From: Bacteroidota bacterium
GTDB lineage: Bacteria; Bacteroidota; Ignavibacteria; Kapaibacteriales; NICIL-2
NCBI GenBank assembly: GCA_019695345.1
Contig: JAIBAE010000030.1
Location: 1-46,486 of the forward strand
Direction of reading: 5' to 3'
DNA: 46,486 bases
Shown here: positions 518-46,310 of the stretch, one piece after another
How positions within the stretch are numbered: position 1 is the first letter of the stretch
How the letters are laid out: each line of letters opens with the position of its first letter
Translations under genes and position numbers: made by a program
Notes under the pieces: model-generated
The model's database searches: none
Told to the model about the DNA's origin: nothing
The model's input: the letters and a program-made list of their open reading frames with translations, nothing else

Positions 518-590
518 CTGCGCCGCAGAACGGTTGGTTCGGACAGGGTTGCCGCGCTGGCGCGCTCGCTTCGGCAGAGGCGGGTAACAC
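518..590 (-). repeat. Family B intergenic repeat, right arm (unpaired in window)
   Basis: On the minus strand it carries the outward head CCTCTGCCGAAGCGA followed by a GCGCCAGCGCGGC block and ends near CTGCGGCGCAG. It is much more GC-rich than its surroundings. Left partners elsewhere (19653, 33175, 36674, 46181) face the other way. The expected left arm would lie upstream of base 1, which would place the orphan gene at 61-429 inside the pair. Confidence 0.75.
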
Positions 591-628
591 AAAAACAAAA
601 AAGGATGACTCATTTCTGAATCATCCTT
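591..628 (-). terminator. Intrinsic terminator of tRNA-Leu
   Basis: Stem AAGGATGA/TCATCCTT (601-628) with a 12-nt loop. Read on the minus strand it is followed by a T-rich run (complement of 591-600). It lies 8 bp beyond the tRNA 3' end. Confidence 0.85.
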
Positions 629-5848: not shown

Positions 5849-6011
5849 TTGCTATCGCAAGACCGCACCGAACCTCAAAAACAAACCAACCTCTATTTGC
5901 GGGATAGAAGCTTCAATTAAATACGAATTACAGATTACTGATTAATGATTACGAGGCACTTCTTTTAGGAAGTAATATACATATCAATAATCAGGATTAT
6001 CAACAACGTAG

Positions 6012-6031
6012 GGGCGAATAGACATTCGCCC
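6012..6031. repeat. Palindrome GGGCGAAT-agac-ATTCGCCC
   Basis: Perfect 8-bp arms with a 4-nt loop, of the dispersed GTAGGGGCGAA type, nested inside a family A pair. Confidence 0.75.
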
Positions 6032-6063
6032 ACAAACAACATGCAATATTTAGTCCATTACAG

Positions 6064-6154
6064 CTTCAGTTTCTCATACTAGGGTTCGACGCGAAGCATG
6101 GCGTCGCTACGAGATTGATTGATCTTTCGTTGAAACCCGTACTCTGAAACTGAA
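6064..6154. repeat. Imperfect inverted repeat with an internal GC hairpin
   Basis: Outer arms CAGTTTC...AGGGTT and AACCC...GAAACTG enclose CGACGC-gaagcatg-GCGTCG (6087-6106). No T-run follows, so it is not a terminator. Confidence 0.6.
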
Positions 6155-6281
6155 CATTTCTTCCGGCATGTGGTGGGTGTTTGTAATTGTTAGTACGGTG
6201 CCGTCATGCGATAGCAGAATATATTGGCACTAACACACACTATGAATCGTCAACGCGGTCTCACAAAGATTATTACTTGAT

Positions 6282-8084: not shown

Positions 8085-8214
8085 TATCTGCTACCGCGTG
8101 ACGGCACCAGACGTCAGATTACTATTGAATCTCTACTTGCCGCCGGAGAGAATCTCAACTCTTCCACACAACGAATTCGTTCAATAGTATTTGTTTATAA
8201 CGATACAACGTTAT

Positions 8215-8256
8215 GTCATTCCCGAAAACGCTGACGAAGCGTTTATCGGGAATCCA
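8215..8256. repeat. Family C dispersed palindrome, copy 2
   Basis: GTCATTCCCG and AAACGC arms paired with GCGTTT and CGGGAATCC. Nearly identical to 2666-2707 and likewise nested inside a family A pair. Confidence 0.8.
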
Positions 8257-8387
8257 TACTAATCATTTTCCTAAACAGGTTACTCGATTTCTAATGTATG
8301 ATATCAAATCATACATAAGATCAACCTAGATAATCACAAATTACAAAGTGTGGTATATGGTATTTCTTGTTGAACTTTCTCTCCCGC

Positions 8388-8420
8388 AAAAAAAAACGCC
8401 TTGCTTTACAGCAAGGCGTG
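8388..8420 (-). terminator. Intrinsic terminator of terC
   Basis: On the minus strand ACGCCTTGCT/AGCAAGGCGT forms a 10-bp stem with a short loop, then nine or more T. It forms the loop region of a family A arm. Confidence 0.93.
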
Positions 8421-8447
8421 GTGCGGTTTGCGATAGCAGAAAAAATA

Positions 8448-16204: not shown

Positions 16205-18124
16205 TTATCCGATATATTGTTTATGCCATAATGCGAGGTTAAGCAACGTGTATAATGTTTTACCCATATTCTTTTTCCCGGATTTATGTAGGTAGAACAT
16301 GTGCTCAACGCCAAACGGTGTTAGTACGCCTGTCTTCATAAAGCTTGATTGTAGTATTTCGTTTTTTGCATATATATACCATTCGTTCTTAAACCACTCA
16401 CTAACAGGCGCTGCAAACCCTTGTTTTTTTCTGTAAATAATTTCTTTGGGAAGGATTGATTCAACTGCTTTTTTTAGAAGTACCTTAGTCTCAGTACCAT
16501 TCTGTATTTTCTTCTGCCACGGGATGGACATTGTGTATTCAATCAAACGGTGGTCGAGAAATGGAACTCTTGCCTCCAGTGAATGAGCCATTGTCATTTT
16601 ATCAACACGCATCAACAACAACTCCGGTAACCTGTGTGATAATTCGTAAAACGCAATGTGCTGAATGTAATCTCCGTTGGGACTTCTTCTGCGTGCTTCC
16701 TGATGTATCCGCTGTGGTAACTGACTTGGTATATCCCGAAGTGAAGAATGTTCCTTACTCAACAATACTTCAAGATGTGAAGGTGTAATATCAACTCCTC
16801 CTCCCCAATACAATTCGTTACCTTCGGCTGCTCTCCGTACATAATCAAGTGCAAGATAATTCCCCGTCATCTGGAAAAATGGTTTTGCGGTTTTGTACAT
16901 CGCCGCTTGCATAAAGCGCGGCATCGCTCTAAACCACTTCCATTGTTTGTTATAAAACTTCCACTCTCTCATCATCCACGGGTAACCAACAAACTGCTCA
17001 TCACTACCTTCGCCAACCTGAATAACCGTTGTCCCGCGATCGCGTGTAAGTTTACTTAAAAAGTAAAGTGGGATACAAACAGGATCTCCATTAGGTTCAT
17101 CTTCGTGCCAAGCCATTTTTTCCAACAACGGTAAGGCATCATTATGGTCAATTAAAATTTCATGATGATTAGTATTGAAAATACCGTTTATCTTTCGTGC
17201 ATATTCAAGTTCATTGTATTTCTGCAATTCCTTAAATCCTACGGTAAACGTATCTACCGGTCTATCCATTAACTCTGCCATCAATGCTACATTTACGCTG
17301 GAATCTATACCACCACTTAAAAACACACCAAAGGGAACATCGCTCATCATGCGGGCTTTCACTGCCTGTCGCAGTAATCGCATAATCTCATCTTGGATTT
17401 CTGCTGTTGATTGTTGAGTGGGAGAGTAATTATCAGGCATTGGAGACCAATACCGCTGGATAGTTATATCACCTCTATTATTCAACCGCAGAAAATGTCC
17501 GGCAGGTAATTTATGAATACCTTTAAACATGGTTTCATGTTCGCTGGTCATGGAAAAGCACATGTAGTTTGGTAGCTCTTCCAAATTCATTTCAGCGCGC
17601 ATTGACGGATGTTGCAGGATAGATTTTATCTCCGACCCAAATATAAATCTTCCATGTTGATAGCTATAGTACAACGGTTTTATGCCAACTCTATCACGTG
17701 CGCAAAACAGTTCTTTCTTTTCATCATCCCATATAGCCAAATCCCACATTCCAATCATACGGTTCAGAAAATCTGCACCATGTTCTCTGTAACCATTGAG
17801 AATTGTTTCGGTATCAGTTTTGGAATTATAGGGAATACCTTTTGTAATGAACTCTTCGCGTAACTCTTCGTGATTATAAATTTCGCCATTAAATACAATA
17901 GTGAATCTGCCATCACTCGTTGACATTGGCTGATGTCCGGCCGCACTTAAATCAATGATAGACAAACGCCGGAATGCAAAGCCACATCTATTATCCTTTG
18001 ATATATAATGACCTTCATCATCCGGACCGCGATGCGATATAATATCACTCATACGTTTGAGTATATCCATCGAAATCTGTGGCTCGGAATTACATGGTTC
18101 AACTACACCGGCTATACCGCACAT
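16205..18124 (-). CDS. asnB: Asparagine synthase (glutamine-hydrolysing)
   Basis: 639 residues. The N-terminal class II glutaminase begins MCGIAGVVEP, with Cys2 as nucleophile after removal of Met, and includes SHRGPDDEG and FNGEIYNHEELR. The C-terminal synthetase domain has the PP-loop FLSGGIDSS near residue 268 and VGEGSDEQFVGYP. The overall form is AsnB-like. Some members of this family act on glycan or lipid precursors, and no biosynthetic cluster is adjacent, so ordinary asparagine synthesis is the best reading. It lies 31 bp after glyS and 3 bp before the DUF885 gene. Confidence 0.93.
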   Translation of the reverse strand: MCGIAGVVEPCNSEPQISMDILKRMSDIISHRGPDDEGHYISKDNRCGFAFRRLSIIDLSAAGHQPMSTSDGRFTIVFNGEIYNHEELREEFITKGIPYNSKTDTETILNGYREHGADFLNRMIGMWDLAIWDDEKKELFCARDRVGIKPLYYSYQHGRFIFGSEIKSILQHPSMRAEMNLEELPNYMCFSMTSEHETMFKGIHKLPAGHFLRLNNRGDITIQRYWSPMPDNYSPTQQSTAEIQDEIMRLLRQAVKARMMSDVPFGVFLSGGIDSSVNVALMAELMDRPVDTFTVGFKELQKYNELEYARKINGIFNTNHHEILIDHNDALPLLEKMAWHEDEPNGDPVCIPLYFLSKLTRDRGTTVIQVGEGSDEQFVGYPWMMREWKFYNKQWKWFRAMPRFMQAAMYKTAKPFFQMTGNYLALDYVRRAAEGNELYWGGGVDITPSHLEVLLSKEHSSLRDIPSQLPQRIHQEARRRSPNGDYIQHIAFYELSHRLPELLLMRVDKMTMAHSLEARVPFLDHRLIEYTMSIPWQKKIQNGTETKVLLKKAVESILPKEIIYRKKQGFAAPVSEWFKNEWYIYAKNEILQSSFMKTGVLTPFGVEHMFYLHKSGKKNMGKTLYTLLNLALWHKQYIG

Positions 18125-19627: not shown

Positions 19628-19741
19628 GTGATTCGTCCGTGAAGAGAAAGATGTTTCCCACCTCTGCCGAAGCGACCCATACTGCGCCGCAACCCGGTCG
19701 GGAACGAAGCCCGTGTAACGCAATAAAATTCTCTTATATAT

Positions 19742-19887
19742 ACAGGAGTTAAACAATATGTCTCCTAGCATGCCTTGTATCAAAGCCATGACGTCCTTCG
19801 CAGACTCAGGAAGTCATGCAGTAATTAAACTCCATACCATCACTTTGATTGCCAGGTTATACAATATTTGTCATGTGTTACTCCTGT
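19742..19887. repeat. Nested long imperfect inverted repeat, about 146 bp
   Basis: Three layers of pairing are visible: ACAGGAGT (19742-19749) with ACTCCTGT (19880-19887), ATCAAAG (19779-19785) with CTTTGAT (19843-19849), and CATGAC-g-TCCT (19787-19797) with AGGA-a-GTCATG (19808-19818). No T-run follows. It could be a miniature transposon-like element or a structured RNA. A 50-codon frame from ATG 19758, with AGGAG upstream, lies inside but is probably incidental to the palindrome. Confidence 0.65.
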
Positions 19888-20005
19888 TGTTATTGGCTCT
19901 TCGTAGTTAACTCTATATATCTTCTTGTCAGGAAACTTATAACACTAATATTTGTTAAATTTCTCTTGCTTTTTAACACAGTTCATGCCATAACTATAAA
20001 TTTAA

Positions 20006-20407
20006 TTACAACCAATCTATTGATATGAATTGCCTAGCAAACTTCAATGGCTCTATGTACTCAATTTGTAACTCTTCTAATATATTTCTTGCTTTGGTTC
20101 GTATCTCTTCCACCTGTATAGAGTTTAATTTTAACTTGATAGTCCATTCTGGTGAGTATAGTAAGATAACTGATAGTTTTAAGGCTACGAATTTTGACAT
20201 TAGAACTTCATCAATATTAATTATACTTGGATTATTATATAAAAATTCTCGATTAAACAAGACTTCAATATAATTTTCTATTACCTCACCAAAATTCTCA
20301 ATTTCATCGTATTGATACTGAGTTAAATTTGTCGATAATATTAATAATATTAAAATTGTGTAATTAAAATAGTAGTTATCTGTGTTAAGTGTTGCATCTG
20401 TAAACAT
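20006..20407 (-). CDS. AT-rich orphan protein, function unknown
   Basis: 133 residues, not recognised. The ATG at 20407 is preceded by a perfect AAGGAGG seven bases upstream, unlike most genes here, which have weak or no such site. Strongly AT-rich, full of Ile, Leu, Asn, Tyr and Glu. An early hydrophobic stretch (FNYTILILLILSTNL, about 14-28) is followed by a helical, acidic middle and an amphipathic C-terminus. There is no obvious signal cleavage site. It sits alone between the arms of a family B pair, and composition and translation signals both suggest foreign origin. A complementary plus-strand frame is a shadow. Confidence 0.75.
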   Translation of the reverse strand: MFTDATLNTDNYYFNYTILILLILSTNLTQYQYDEIENFGEVIENYIEVLFNREFLYNNPSIINIDEVLMSKFVALKLSVILLYSPEWTIKLKLNSIQVEEIRTKARNILEELQIEYIEPLKFARQFISIDWL

Positions 20408-20670
20408 GATTATTCCTCCTTAAAATTGGTTGCATTTGTTACTCTAATTACATTACTGCCACTTGCATGTGGTCTACCAAGACAAATTTTCCAATATTGC
20501 GTAGGATATTGATTAGTAGAGTTAAAGTCCCGTAATGACTGAAGGCTAATACTACTGTACATTGTTTTATGTAAAGCAAATTACAAATTAACTGCGCTGC
20601 GGCAACGCCATGCCCCGCCCGTGTGACGGCGCTGGCACGGTCGCTTCGGCAAAGGCGGGGAACATATTTA

Positions 20671-25713: not shown

Positions 25714-25914
25714 AGTATTCTGTGTAATTAAGCTTCTTTGCCTTAGTCTAAAAACAACCTAAAACCCGTTAAAGAGATTTTGTGAGTAATTTTCGACTGC
25801 TTTGCTAATTTTCTGAACTTTTAATAACTGAACAATCAGTATTTATACCCAATTTTCTTCCAGACCACGCAAATTCCCGTAATTATAAGGGGCAAATTGT
25901 TGTATTTACGTTTC

Positions 25915-26080
25915 TGCTATCGCAATCCGCACCTAACAAAACTGCTCAAACTCCCCTTTTTCTTGCGGCAGAGAACATCTCCAGTTTCAAACCACGGTTA
26001 TCGTGATGCTGTACTTGAGAATCTGCTCGGCAAGAAGTGGGTGTTATTTACATGTTACCCGGAGCCGTCTTGCGTTAGCA
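25915..26080. repeat. Family A repeat pair between two surface-protein genes
   Basis: The left arm 25915-25975 (stem CCGCA/TGCGG, CAGAGAAC box) and the inverted right arm 26018-26080 (stem CGGC/GCCG, TGCTAACGCA box) lie in the 415-bp gap. The remaining 25714-25914 is AT-rich and presumably holds the promoter and leader of the 721-residue gene, but I see no clear TAnnTTTG. Confidence 0.75.
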
Positions 26081-26128
26081 AAAAATTCATTGGATATACT
26101 ATCAAAGAACTACTGTTTTGTTGCGAGA

Positions 26129-33050: not shown

Positions 33051-33174
33051 AATGTTTCTGTATAATAAATGAAGCAACCAATACTCACAACTATTCGATG
33101 TACCGATTTGCTCCATGTTTCGGCAGTTTAGGGTTGGTTCTTTAATTATCCTTTTGGGGTATGTAGAATTTGGT

Positions 33175-33445
33175 GTTTCCGTCCTCTGCCGAAGCGAGCA
33201 ATACTGCGCCGCAACCCGGTCGGGAGCCAACGTTACAGCATCGCCAACATTGTGTCAGAACATCGTGTGGTCTATGTACGTATTTCTATAAACATTCCGC
33301 TACTCTGTAGCAGATCATAATACAAAACAGCTCCAGAGGTGAGATATCCTCATAGATATATTGTTAGCGTTTTCTGCGCCGCTGCAACGTTTTGCCCCGC
33401 CCGTGTGACGGCGCTGGCGCGGTTGTTTCGGCAATGGCGGGAACC
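33175..33445. repeat. Family B repeat pair between the response regulator and nadE
   Basis: The left arm 33175-33236 has CCTCTGCCGAAGCGA and the left-type core. The right arm 33373-33445 is inverted, has the right-type GCGCCGTCACACGGGCGGGG core and ends nine bases from the nadE stop. The 136-bp interior holds no gene. The adjoining 33051-33174 is the leader of the response regulator, with no clear TAnnTTTG. Confidence 0.82.
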
Positions 33446-33453
33446 ATGCTGTA

Positions 33454-36664: not shown

Positions 36665-36673
36665 CACGTAATT

Positions 36674-36829
36674 GTTTCCCTCCTCTGCTGAAACGAACCA
36701 TACTGCGCGCCAACCCGGTGCGAACCGAACGTTGTGCGTCGAGTAGTAGTTAAGAAAATGCGAAGCTGTAACCTTCTGCCCCGCCCGTGTGCCGGCGCTT
36801 GAGGGTTGCTACGGCAATAGACCGAACCA
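36674..36829. repeat. Family B repeat pair downstream of the dioxygenase gene
   Basis: The left arm 36674-36735 starts ten bases after the stop (a diverged CCTCTGCTGAAACGA head). The right arm 36758-36829 is inverted, with the CACACGGGCGGGG core. The arms are 22 bp apart. This pair occupies most of the 291-bp gap before mazG, which otherwise holds only the mazG promoter. Confidence 0.8.
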
Positions 36830-39583: not shown

Positions 39584-39590
39584 TATTTTT

Positions 39591-39761
39591 TGCTACCGCA
39601 GACGGCACCATATCTTTCTTTCCATACAACCACATTTTGCCGGACAGAACCTCATTTATCATACAGTAATCTACGATAGACGCACTTTTAGTAAACGCCA
39701 TTCTGTCGCGCGCAGGTTTACGGTGTTTGATAACATACCAAGAGGTGCGCTTGCGATAGCA
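39591..39761. repeat. Family A repeat pair downstream of the LCP lipoprotein gene
   Basis: The left arm 39591-39649 has the box TGCTACCGCA, stem CGGCA/TGCCG and GACAGAAC. The right arm 39701-39761 is inverted with the third stem variant GCGCA/TGCGC. The interior is 51 bp and holds nothing recognisable. Confidence 0.82.
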
Positions 39762-39850
39762 AACAACTATTCTTTTATCCGTTAATCGTAAAAAACAGCT
39801 AATGGCACGATAAATGTACCTGTAAAAAAAGTGTTTATAAGGGTATTTGC

Positions 39851-43393: not shown

Positions 43394-44434
43394 ATGAACA
43401 AATTGTTTTTACTCGTTTCGTTAATATACTCATTTGCATTCGCACCTTTTTCTGATATTGCAGTAGCACAATCCGAAAATGAAGGATATTCAGAATCCTA
43501 TCTTCAACGTCCAATTGGTGCTAGAGCTATAGGAATGGCTGGAAATAATTCTTCAGTCATAAACGACCCAAATACAATTTTTGGCAATCCTGCCGGACTT
43601 TCCTCACAATCTGAAAATTTAACACTCTCATCTACCTTTTCAGCTCTACAGTTTGGAAGATTTCACTCAACCTTTGCACTTGCTCAAAATTTTGATTCTA
43701 ACTTTGGTGTAGGATTAGGATTTAATTTCATGAATAATAGTCAGTTTATAATCAGAGATAAAAGCGGTAATAGTCTGGGTAACGGAAATAATTTGCAATA
43801 TTCAGCTTCCTTTGGATGTGCTTACTCCATAAAACCACTCTCATTTGGCATTTCAGGTAAGTACTTACGAAGTACTTCAACGGCATTAGTTGAGTCAGGT
43901 GAGGGGTTTGCTTTTGATGCCGGAACATATTTTACCATCAAAAATGTAATAAGTGCCGGAATAGTAATTCAGAACGTTGGCTTCATTAAATGGAATAACT
44001 CGTCTTCGCTTCAAGAAACTTTACCTTGGATGATTAAAGCAGGAATTTCAACGGAAATTCCTTTAGACGATAAAAGTTATACCCAGCGAAATGCTTCATT
44101 AGGTGAAGTAGAAGAATTTGATGAGCCTAGTACCACTTTTGTTTTGTTATCACTGGAAAGCCAGTATATCAGGGGAAATAACAATCCGAATATTACCTTT
44201 GGTGTGGAGTATGGTATTACCGAGTTACTGTGTTTACGTTCAGGAATTGCGTTATATGGAGATAATTACGGGAATACTACATTTCTGCCAATGAACACAG
44301 TTTCCGGTGGATTCTCATATAAGTTTATTTCAACTGATTTACCTTTCAGACTGCAAATGGACTATGCTGCATCTCGGGAATACACCAGCCAGTCTTCTAT
44401 TGCACACCATGTTTCATTTATTTTTCAGTTTTAA
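43394..44434 (+). CDS. PorV/PorQ-like outer membrane beta-barrel
   Basis: 346 residues, signal peptide ending near AVAQS. The N-terminal motif GARAIGMAGNNSSVINDPNTIFGNPAGL is the signature of the PorV/PorQ (UPF0164-like) barrels, and successive amphipathic strands fill the rest (LTLSSTFSALQFGRF, FGISGKYLRS, ITFGVEYGITELLCLRSGI). PorV shuttles T9SS cargo at the outer membrane; PorQ is a related component. Which of the two this is cannot be decided from the sequence. It follows a T9SS-sorted gene and ends about 80 bp before rplS. Confidence 0.82.
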   Translation: MNKLFLLVSLIYSFAFAPFSDIAVAQSENEGYSESYLQRPIGARAIGMAGNNSSVINDPNTIFGNPAGLSSQSENLTLSSTFSALQFGRFHSTFALAQNFDSNFGVGLGFNFMNNSQFIIRDKSGNSLGNGNNLQYSASFGCAYSIKPLSFGISGKYLRSTSTALVESGEGFAFDAGTYFTIKNVISAGIVIQNVGFIKWNNSSSLQETLPWMIKAGISTEIPLDDKSYTQRNASLGEVEEFDEPSTTFVLLSLESQYIRGNNNPNITFGVEYGITELLCLRSGIALYGDNYGNTTFLPMNTVSGGFSYKFISTDLPFRLQMDYAASREYTSQSSIAHHVSFIFQF

Positions 44435-44479
44435 TTACAGAAAACTGGATTAATGTTTGGTAAAAACAGTAGTTAACCG

Positions 44480-44487
44480 TATTTTCG
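44480..44487 (+). promoter_or_regulatory. Putative -7 element of rplS (TATTTTCG) with -33 TTTG
   Basis: TATTTTCG differs from TAnnTTTG by one base. TTTG at 44456-44459 lies exactly 20 bp upstream, the best -33/-7 spacing in the window. Transcription should begin near 44494, which supports ATG 44517 over 44502. Confidence 0.6.
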
Positions 44488-44516
44488 CGGGCTAAATTTT
44501 CATGGAGAATACAAAT

Positions 44517-44900
44517 ATGCATCCCAAGATTGCACTTATTGACCAAATGAGTAAGGCAAAATCTGAAGAGATTCGCAAAACTAAAGATGGTGAGCTAGCT
44601 CAAGATATACCTTCATTCCGCCCCGGCGATTCAGTTACTATTGCTGTTCGTGTTGTGGAAGGCGATAAAGAGCGTATTCAAAATTTCACCGGTACCATTA
44701 TCGCACGTCGCGGTTCAGGCATTAATGCCACTTTCCGCGTTCGTAAAGTTTCTAATGGTGTTGGTGTTGAAAGAATATTCCCACTATTTTCACCAAATAT
44801 TCAAAGCATTACAGTTGACCGTAACGGTCATGTTCGTAGAGCTAAGTTATATTACTTACGTGGCATGTCGGAGAAAAAGATTCGTCAAAAACTCAGATAA
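44517..44900 (+). CDS. rplS: 50S ribosomal protein L19
   Basis: 127 residues from ATG 44517 (GGAG nine bases upstream). The ATG at 44502 would leave a leader of under ten bases and no binding site. The family core is intact: [61 protein letters not shown], then [18 protein letters not shown]19 sits at the 30S-50S interface. In many genomes it follows trmD and rimM; here it stands alone between a PorV-like gene and recA. Confidence 0.97.
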
Positions 44901-44918
44901 TATCTCAGAAATTTGCAC

Positions 44919-44948
44919 AAAAAAGGCAACCTTATTGGTTGCCTTTTT
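44919..44948 (+). terminator. Intrinsic terminator of rplS
   Basis: AAAAGGCAACC pairs with GGTTGCCTTTT around TTATT, followed by T's. It lies 18 bp after the rplS stop. Confidence 0.93.
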
Positions 44949-45082
44949 CATTTGTACTATGCTAACAGCATCGAAACTAAATATTTCTTCACGTGGAAAA
45001 GTTACCGTTGTTCTACCAAAAAATACTCTCTAATTTGCGTAAACTATTTACTGAATTCCCATAAGTATTATAAGGATGTTAT

Positions 45083-46174
45083 ATGGCTGAGGATAAGAAA
45101 GATAAAAGCGAAAAGACTGAAATAGCAACAAATGGATATGCAAAACCCGACCCAGCAAAGTTGAAAGCAGCCATGAGTGCCATGGAGCAAATTGATAAAC
45201 AATATGGCAAAGGCACAATATTAAAACTCAACGATGCGGCACCAAATTCAGTAGAAGGTATTTCTACAGGTTGTTTATCTCTCGATGCAGCTATTGGTGT
45301 TGGCGGTTTTCCAAAAGGAAGAATTATTGAAATATACGGGCCTGAAAGCTCAGGTAAAACTACAGTTTGTTTACAAGTAATTGCTGAAGCACAGAAGAAA
45401 GGTGGCTTGGCAGCGATAGTTGATACTGAACACGCATTAGATGTTCAATATGCACAACGTTTGGGTGTGGATTTAGATAACCTCTTACTATCGCAACCAG
45501 AGTTTGGTGAGCAGGCATTAGAGATAGTAGAAACACTTGTTCGTAGTGGAGCGATTGATGTTATTGTTATCGACTCCGTTGCGGCGTTAACACCACGCGT
45601 TGAAATTGAAGGCGATATGGGAGACGCACAAATGGGTTCACAAGCTCGTCTTATGAGTCAGGCTATGCGTAAACTTCAGGCAGCAATTGGTAAATCAAAT
45701 GCCGTTGTCATCTTCACAAATCAGCTTCGTAGTAAAATTGGCGTAATGTATGGCAATCCGGAAACAACAACCGGCGGTAATGCTCTTAAATATTACGCTT
45801 CGGTTCGTATTGATATCCGCCGCAAAGATGTAATTAAAGAAGGTCAGGATATTGTAGGTAACCGTGTTAGGGCAAAAGTTGTAAAGAACAAGGTTGCACC
45901 TCCGTTCCGCGAGTGTGAGTTTGATATTTTATACAACGAAGGGATTTCTAAACTTGGCGATATGATTGACCTTGGTGTAGAACATGGATTTATCACACGT
46001 AGCGGTTCATGGTTTGGATACTCGGAAGAACGTGTTCAAGGACGCGATGGATTACGTAAGTTATTACAAGATTCGCCTGATTTATTTGCTAAACTTGAAG
46101 TAGAAGTAAAGGAGAAACTTGGAATTTTACGTCCGGAGACAACAGAGAAAACAAAAGGTTCTAAAAAAGATTGA
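45083..46174 (+). CDS. recA: Recombinase RecA
   Basis: 363 residues from ATG 45083 (AAGGATG upstream). The N-terminal helix is preceded by a charged Lys-rich extension of about 25 residues. Walker A GPESSGKT is at 86-93, Walker B region [12 protein letters not shown] near 160, and the L2 loop has [35 protein letters not shown]. It forms ATP-dependent filaments on single-stranded DNA for strand exchange and SOS control. No LexA box was identified upstream. A family B repeat pair and terminator separate it from recX. Confidence 0.98.
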
Positions 46175-46180
46175 TAATGT

Positions 46181-46310
46181 TACTCTCTTCTGCCGAAGCG
46201 ATGCTTACAGCGCGCAAACCCTGTGCGAACCAAGCATTTCTGCGGCGCTGAAGGATATGTCCCGACCGGGTTGCGGCGCACAAGGAGTGCCGCGGCGCAG
46301 AAGCGATCCA
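46181..46310. repeat. Family B repeat pair between recA and recX
   Basis: The left arm 46181-46246 begins seven bases after the recA stop (head CTTCTGCCGAAGCGA). The inverted right arm, about 46241-46310, overlaps it slightly and carries the left-type core CGCCGCAACCCGGTCGGG instead of the usual right core. This makes a nearly symmetric GC-rich hairpin. No interior remains. Confidence 0.75.

Follow-up and report, generated by a model that had tools for sequence, protein, structure and literature searches.

REPINs are mobilised by RAYT/TnpAREP, which are Y1 HUH transposases of IS200/IS605 type. They occur between genes, in high copy number, as inverted doublets whose hairpins are preserved by compensatory change, with some repeats left as singlets and no target duplication (PMC3116915, PMC6006769); REPs of subclass 2.6 already depart from the usual form (PMC6006769). 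MICs consist of IS ends that enclose passenger genes and no transposase, with mobilisation presumed to occur in trans (PMC3129680). Repeats resembling REPINs or MITEs are usually viewed as gene-free passengers of the genome. Genes for toxin-antitoxin (TA) pairs, GNATs, VOC proteins and lipoproteins are cargo of the kind found in integron cassettes.

Here we follow up a locus at which an AT-rich orphan gene sits between two facing repeat arms, in a 46,486-nt window that makes up the whole of contig C22 of a Kapaibacterium draft genome (4.56 Mb, 163 contigs). Taking the evidence together, we put at roughly 55% the probability that such facing arms are non-autonomous, REPIN- or MITE-like two-arm elements, which tolerate or take up genes in their loop and copy themselves from tip to tip, perhaps by way of a Y1 transposase. 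The elements are closest to REPINs in structure and to MICs as regards passenger genes. With REPINs they share a high copy number, an intergenic inverted-doublet form, compensatory hairpins, singlets, the lack of a target duplication and the presence of Y1 genes in the genome, one of which carries YIHNNP, a motif also seen in Bacteroidetes TnpAREP of subclass 2.6 (PMC3116915, PMC6006769). However, the arms are 72-80 nt long rather than 20-40 nt, two unrelated arm families can meet in one pair, the loops may hold genes and reach a few kb, and no Y1 gene is tied to the B arms; nor, by inspection only, does the arm consensus have an evident GT[AG]G ‘foot’, which counts against the reading that we favour. 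Like MITEs and MICs, the elements enclose passenger genes and lack a transposase between their inverted ends (PMC3129680), but no target duplication was found, and they end in structured hairpin arms and are present in far more copies. They recall integrons and CALINs in holding single genes or TA pairs that are AT-rich and have short hairpin sites at their borders, but differ in that no IntI scores above cut-off, arrays are absent and the ends converge rather than recurring in a single orientation. No account of elements like these from this phylum turned up in a literature search, and such a negative is weak evidence that none exists.

The window and its cargo-carrying pair

The pair in question is formed by a left B arm at 19652-19720 (+ strand, subtype CGA/TCG) and a right B arm at 20592-20665 (- strand, subtype CGC/GCG), which differ in subtype, like the arms of nearly all B pairs. 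Together they make an inverted repeat (19647-19702 / 20614-20669) that is 77% complementary, with 911 nt between its halves. The first-pass annotation had described this pair as enclosing an AT-rich orphan gene with a perfect AAGGAGG and a 146-bp nested inverted repeat, and all of this is borne out: the gene lies at 20006-20407 (- strand; 133 aa, 27% GC), with its Shine-Dalgarno sequence at 20415-20421, and the nested repeat at 19742-19887. The open reading frame has a hexamer score of 29, the AAGGAGG is directly upstream of its ATG, and from these features it looks like a real gene; a weak 50-aa frame upstream of it (20410-20562, - strand) may not be real. The orphan has no match in Pfam, PHROG or PADLOC, and no credible relative among 60 related and 295 other genomes of the phylum, two matches at E~0.003 having been discounted for their internal stops. 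The predicted structure of its protein is all helical at a pLDDT of 54, too low for use. Folded as DNA, the nested repeat reaches -23.6 kcal/mol as against -13.4 in shuffles (z -3.8, 0/200), and it holds a two-hairpin motif, which we call D'-C, at 19745-19829. At the other end of the interior, the subterminal sequence adjoining the right arm (20523-20592) resembles C120:4957-5023 (E=0.002), which is internal to the left arm of a different B pair with cargo.

In the nearest relative (G002), the synthetase (80% identity) and OmpA (61%) genes that flank the locus are both present, not adjacent to each other, with neither arms nor an orphan beside either. Enclosure of the orphan is seen directly at this locus, and we infer its movement from the element family to which its arms belong; it fits a genome-wide class of AT-rich genes between facing arms.

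The three other complete B pairs of the window are indeed short, as had been noted: 33174-33447, with a 130-bp interior that holds another repeat family; 36673-36829, with a 17-bp interior and a full-length inverted relative at C11:25913-26054 (77%); and 46178-46303, whose inner ends overlap and which lies a few nucleotides past a stop codon. We can also confirm that the second AT-rich orphan (61-429, - strand; an open reading frame of 61-453 from a GTG) adjoins an unpaired right-type B arm at 519-594 (- strand). This arm sits beside a tRNA-Leu (635-721), the sole Rfam match at gathering thresholds; base 1 of the window is the end of the contig, and the arm's partner would fall beyond it. A D hairpin (22-55, + strand) lies immediately 3' of the second orphan, whose 3' flank (1-60) is matched, at 89% over 47 nt (E=2e-11), by the sequence 3' of an unrelated orphan (C19:36005-36051). 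Pairs of family A occur in the window at 8085-8443, 5849-6220, 25911-26085 and 39586-39765. Separately, a 44-nt direct repeat at 2665-2708 and 8214-8257 (TGTCATTCC.GAAAACGC..GCGTTTATCGGGAATCCAT) belongs to yet another family of intergenic repeats; its second copy is inside an A pair.

Arms, facing pairs and the genes between them

For the wider survey, 47% of the genome was analysed as two independent samples: the first (18 contigs, 1.12 Mb, window included) served to build the models and choose thresholds, and the second, a replicate (33 further contigs, 1.04 Mb), was analysed with models and criteria fixed beforehand. Gene calls were home-made, and the genome is a fragmented draft. We call an arm ‘+’ when its outer tip is on the left, such that a facing pair reads +- and an outward-facing one -+.

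On both sides, the B arm is a copy of a single ~72-nt repeat (GTTTCCCGCCTCTGCCGAAGCAACC..GCGCNNCAACCCGGTNNGAACC..CGTTACAGCGTCGCA), with 171 arms found in the first sample and 142 in the second (~660 per genome, extrapolated). Within the repeat, columns 35-49 form a hairpin of 5 bp with single bulges at 38 and A40, in which three pairs alternate between C-G, G-C and A-T to give five subtypes; the pairing is kept in 133 of 134 arms, with no G-T wobble in any of them. An alignment of 31 arms has 100% of its cells paired and a covariation of 0.609, as against 0.145 when shuffled (0/500). Since this covariation comes without G-T wobble, we take the structure to be one of DNA, and the hairpin or palindrome is read as being under selection at that level. 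An RNA element is not favoured, because single arms, when folded as RNA, show no gain in stability over shuffles and the B hairpin has no G-U pairs; a terminator reading was likewise set aside, as there is no T-run after the hairpin and only a mild excess of arms at 3' ends. Partial B-like matches that span columns 25-60 only (ACAGCGTTCAGCGCGSCAACCC..) were seen at C144:7585-7620, C49:15493, C120:36016 and other places, and may point to shorter elements of a third, related family.

Family A (TTTTTTGCTATCGC..) contributes 269 arms in each of the two samples (~1,140 per genome, extrapolated), and its units consist of two ~80-nt arms around a variable loop, with a stem that covaries, by eye only, between CGGCA..TGCCG and CCGCA..TGCGG. 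Among 60 relatives, B arms gave three matches in G002 and one weak match in G020; G002 belongs to a different genus of the same family, and its few arms are of two subtypes (L129:1501-1570 and L132:1501-1570), so B arms may predate the Kapaibacterium genome.

Neighbouring arms less than 400 bp apart face each other almost without exception (101 facing against 1 not in the first sample, 90 against 1 in the second; 191 against 2 in total), and at 400-2000 bp, over both samples, the preference persists, with 75 +- neighbours, 15 ++ and 17 -- (binomial 3e-10). Pairs are of type AA, BB or AB, with 30, 30 and 21 short examples, respectively, in the first sample. Within a B pair, the arms tend not to be of the same subtype: this is so in none of 51 short pairs (p=4e-7) and in 2 of 27 at 250-3000 bp (p=0.009), compared with 23 of 66 other neighbours, and from this avoidance we take the long B pairs with genes to be genuine partners. 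A pairs follow the subtype rule in short pairs only; for long ones the rule did not replicate (20 of 32 had the same subtype in the second sample), which counts against the elements being two-ended units of the kind that we favour.

What lies between the arms is equally distinctive. Genes of <33% GC make up 54 of 245 between facing arms, compared with 8 of 724 between outward-facing ones (pooled, Fisher 2e-26), and mean gene GC in the replicate is 0.367 in facing and 0.436 in outward intervals (p=5e-20), low GC on its own being no proof of foreign origin. In the outward-facing class, genes in short intervals (<=2500 bp) have a GC of 0.43 and those in longer ones 0.40 (L064-L123 and the window). 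Interiors of 250-2000-bp pairs typically hold one gene or a TA pair, and across the part of the genome analysed further AT-rich orphans, single genes and TA pairs were seen between paired ends. Cargo includes a PIN toxin with its antitoxin (C25:62699-63296), a RelE/YoeB-like pair (C152:39057-39588), GNATs, a VOC protein, DUF559, secreted proteins or lipoproteins, and orphans; the PIN, YoeB, GNAT and DUF559 labels are backed by Pfam, and the VOC and lipoprotein labels are our reading of the sequences. Some interiors hold ordinary genes, such as that for HPr kinase, and others nested repeats only. A length-matched Pfam comparison, which is only suggestive, gave 75 families inside and 113 outside per 80 proteins.

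Copies of units and a possible route of movement

When 318 +- units were compared with unlinked loci, homology between copies often ended at the arm tips. Such tip-bounded copies are found at C55:12811-12976 and 17889-18053 (91%) and, inverted, at C95:63214-63492 and C53:22010-21703 (82%); further copies are C31:73424 and 77081 (74%) and the A-B hybrids C50:17986-18348 and C41:15724-16101 (78%), the A tip being undetected in C41. The units are mosaic, since C95:80976-81481 matches C100:37082-36579 (91%) at one end only and its other end matches a different unit. At C163:46804 and 54501, homology begins exactly at the + arm tip in both copies and continues across paralogous 1.5-kb genes at 91-94% identity; the genes on the left are not homologous, and the right ends are rearranged. 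This is the sole clear duplication of coding cargo from an arm tip. ‘Empty’ and ‘filled’ forms are also seen, in that C131:37049-37440, with no gene, and C131:32967-33925, with a 188-aa gene, have both ends in common (86% and 78%). C19:34417-37007 and 43712-46200 likewise have common ends with different orphans inside, and C55:94371 and C56:24343 common B ends with different genes, a match that may be partly nested repeat. Several B units with common subterminal sequence and nested repeats (CCCCATGCTTTAGCGTGGGG, GATTCTTCGCGTTGCTCAGAATGACA) crowd C163:28345-57300, and their ends look recombined. Most copies are 70-90% alike with no sign of a recent burst, which again counts against the favoured reading.

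The first-pass annotation had proposed a cassette-like element made of B ends. This holds in so far as structured ends delimit AT-rich interiors, copies are bounded by tips and empty and filled forms exist; it fails in that B is not special, since A arms behave alike and A/B hybrids occur, and many interiors contain nested repeats only. Enzyme-driven acquisition of genes by the units is a candidate only; the C163 and C19 loci, as compared here from their sequences, suggest movement with cargo.

As to the enzyme, the genome has two intact Y1 (HUH) genes (on C55 and C123) and one pseudogene; each intact gene is enclosed by an A pair, the pseudogene is next to an A arm, Y1 genes have other hairpins on their flanks as well, and no B arm is next to either intact gene, a further point against the favoured reading. 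At C123:45702-46829, the Y1 gene between A arms has tandem GCTACRGAGTAGC and GCTCCGATGGAGC hairpin repeats on both sides, repeats that are also nested inside B pairs (window 33245-33374). At C55:101094-104625, a RAYT-like Y1 gene (that with YIHNNP) stands between two similar AT-rich lipoprotein-like genes within one A pair, and has palindromes of its own at its flanks (GTCAGGTGTTACACCTGAC and similar). We saw no signal of target duplication in 167 short pairs (k=2-9), where it could have faded with age. Given the lack of target duplication, the bulged hairpins and the Y1 genes inside or beside A arms, movement as single-stranded DNA (ssDNA) driven by Y1 seems likeliest.

We favour, at the strength given above, the following model. 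Two ~72-nt B arms (or two ~80-nt A arms, or one of each), facing each other, delimit a unit, which would spread tip to tip into intergenic DNA; in its short form the loop is nearly empty, and in a substantial minority of units it holds a gene or TA pair that may be carried with it. A Y1 transposase acting in trans would move the unit as ssDNA, as has been proposed for REPINs, and genes may get into the loop through insertion or recombination events, possibly involving the C/D hairpins next to the cargo.

Competing readings and wider meaning

A serious, if unlikely, rival is passive enclosure, whereby the pairs are old, immobile REPIN- or MITE-like repeats, or gene-end sites, and foreign genes have landed in the neutral DNA of their loops, with nothing to capture or carry them. 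The position of the arms would suit this, as they are intergenic (1 of 171 within a gene) and lie a median of 13 bp past stops and ~100 bp before starts, as would the other nested repeats within interiors; moreover, DNA insertion into REPINs would give REP singlets (Bertels and Rainey, PMC3116915). Yet the interiors of short pairs make up only ~10% of the intergenic DNA between arms (24 of 234 kb), and 54 of 81 AT-rich genes are between facing arms; the recurrence of one scaffold with differing cargo, and of copies that end at the tips, also speaks against it. We are more doubtful of the opposite extreme, a hairpin-ended gene-capture system with interchangeable arms of two unrelated families, in which single genes would be actively taken up by the loop, exchanged and spread throughout the chromosome; this would amount to a dispersed counterpart of the integron that runs on ssDNA hairpins, and we regard that equation with the same doubt.

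It is improbable that a recombinase of integron type inserts AT-rich genes along with C/D sites, with the A and B arms marking no more than the landing site. In its favour, the cargo types resemble integron cassettes, and the D'-C motif of the window repeat recurs near unrelated AT-rich genes elsewhere: 11 of 15 classifiable C motifs lie between facing arms, which cover 17.5% of the span (p=3e-6), as do 10 of 19 D motifs (p=5e-4), in a small sample gathered by following the window sequence. A D motif also stands in C131 where the common scaffold gives way to unique DNA; C/D motifs may serve to join cargo, or may belong to another REP family. Against it, no integron integrase scores above cut-off (TIGR02249, best 116.7 bits against 265), and the best tyrosine recombinase has no match to profile positions 180-237. 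The cargo is dispersed and forms no arrays; a direct attC array is absent, the arms being convergent and dispersed, and the C/D motifs, judged by inspection, are two separate hairpins rather than an attC-type palindrome. That unrelated intergenic palindromes chanced to flank a gene is hardly credible, common as arms are (about one A or B per 2.5 kb), given the 400-2000-bp orientation bias and the way in which long B pairs follow the subtype rule.

Returning to the two-arm elements that we favour, hundreds of units split the chromosome into GC-richer genes outside and AT-rich, often family-less genes inside. If the units move genes, they would form a cassette system that is dispersed and lacks its own enzyme, and would offer a route for the entry and spread of orphan genes in a little-studied phylum.
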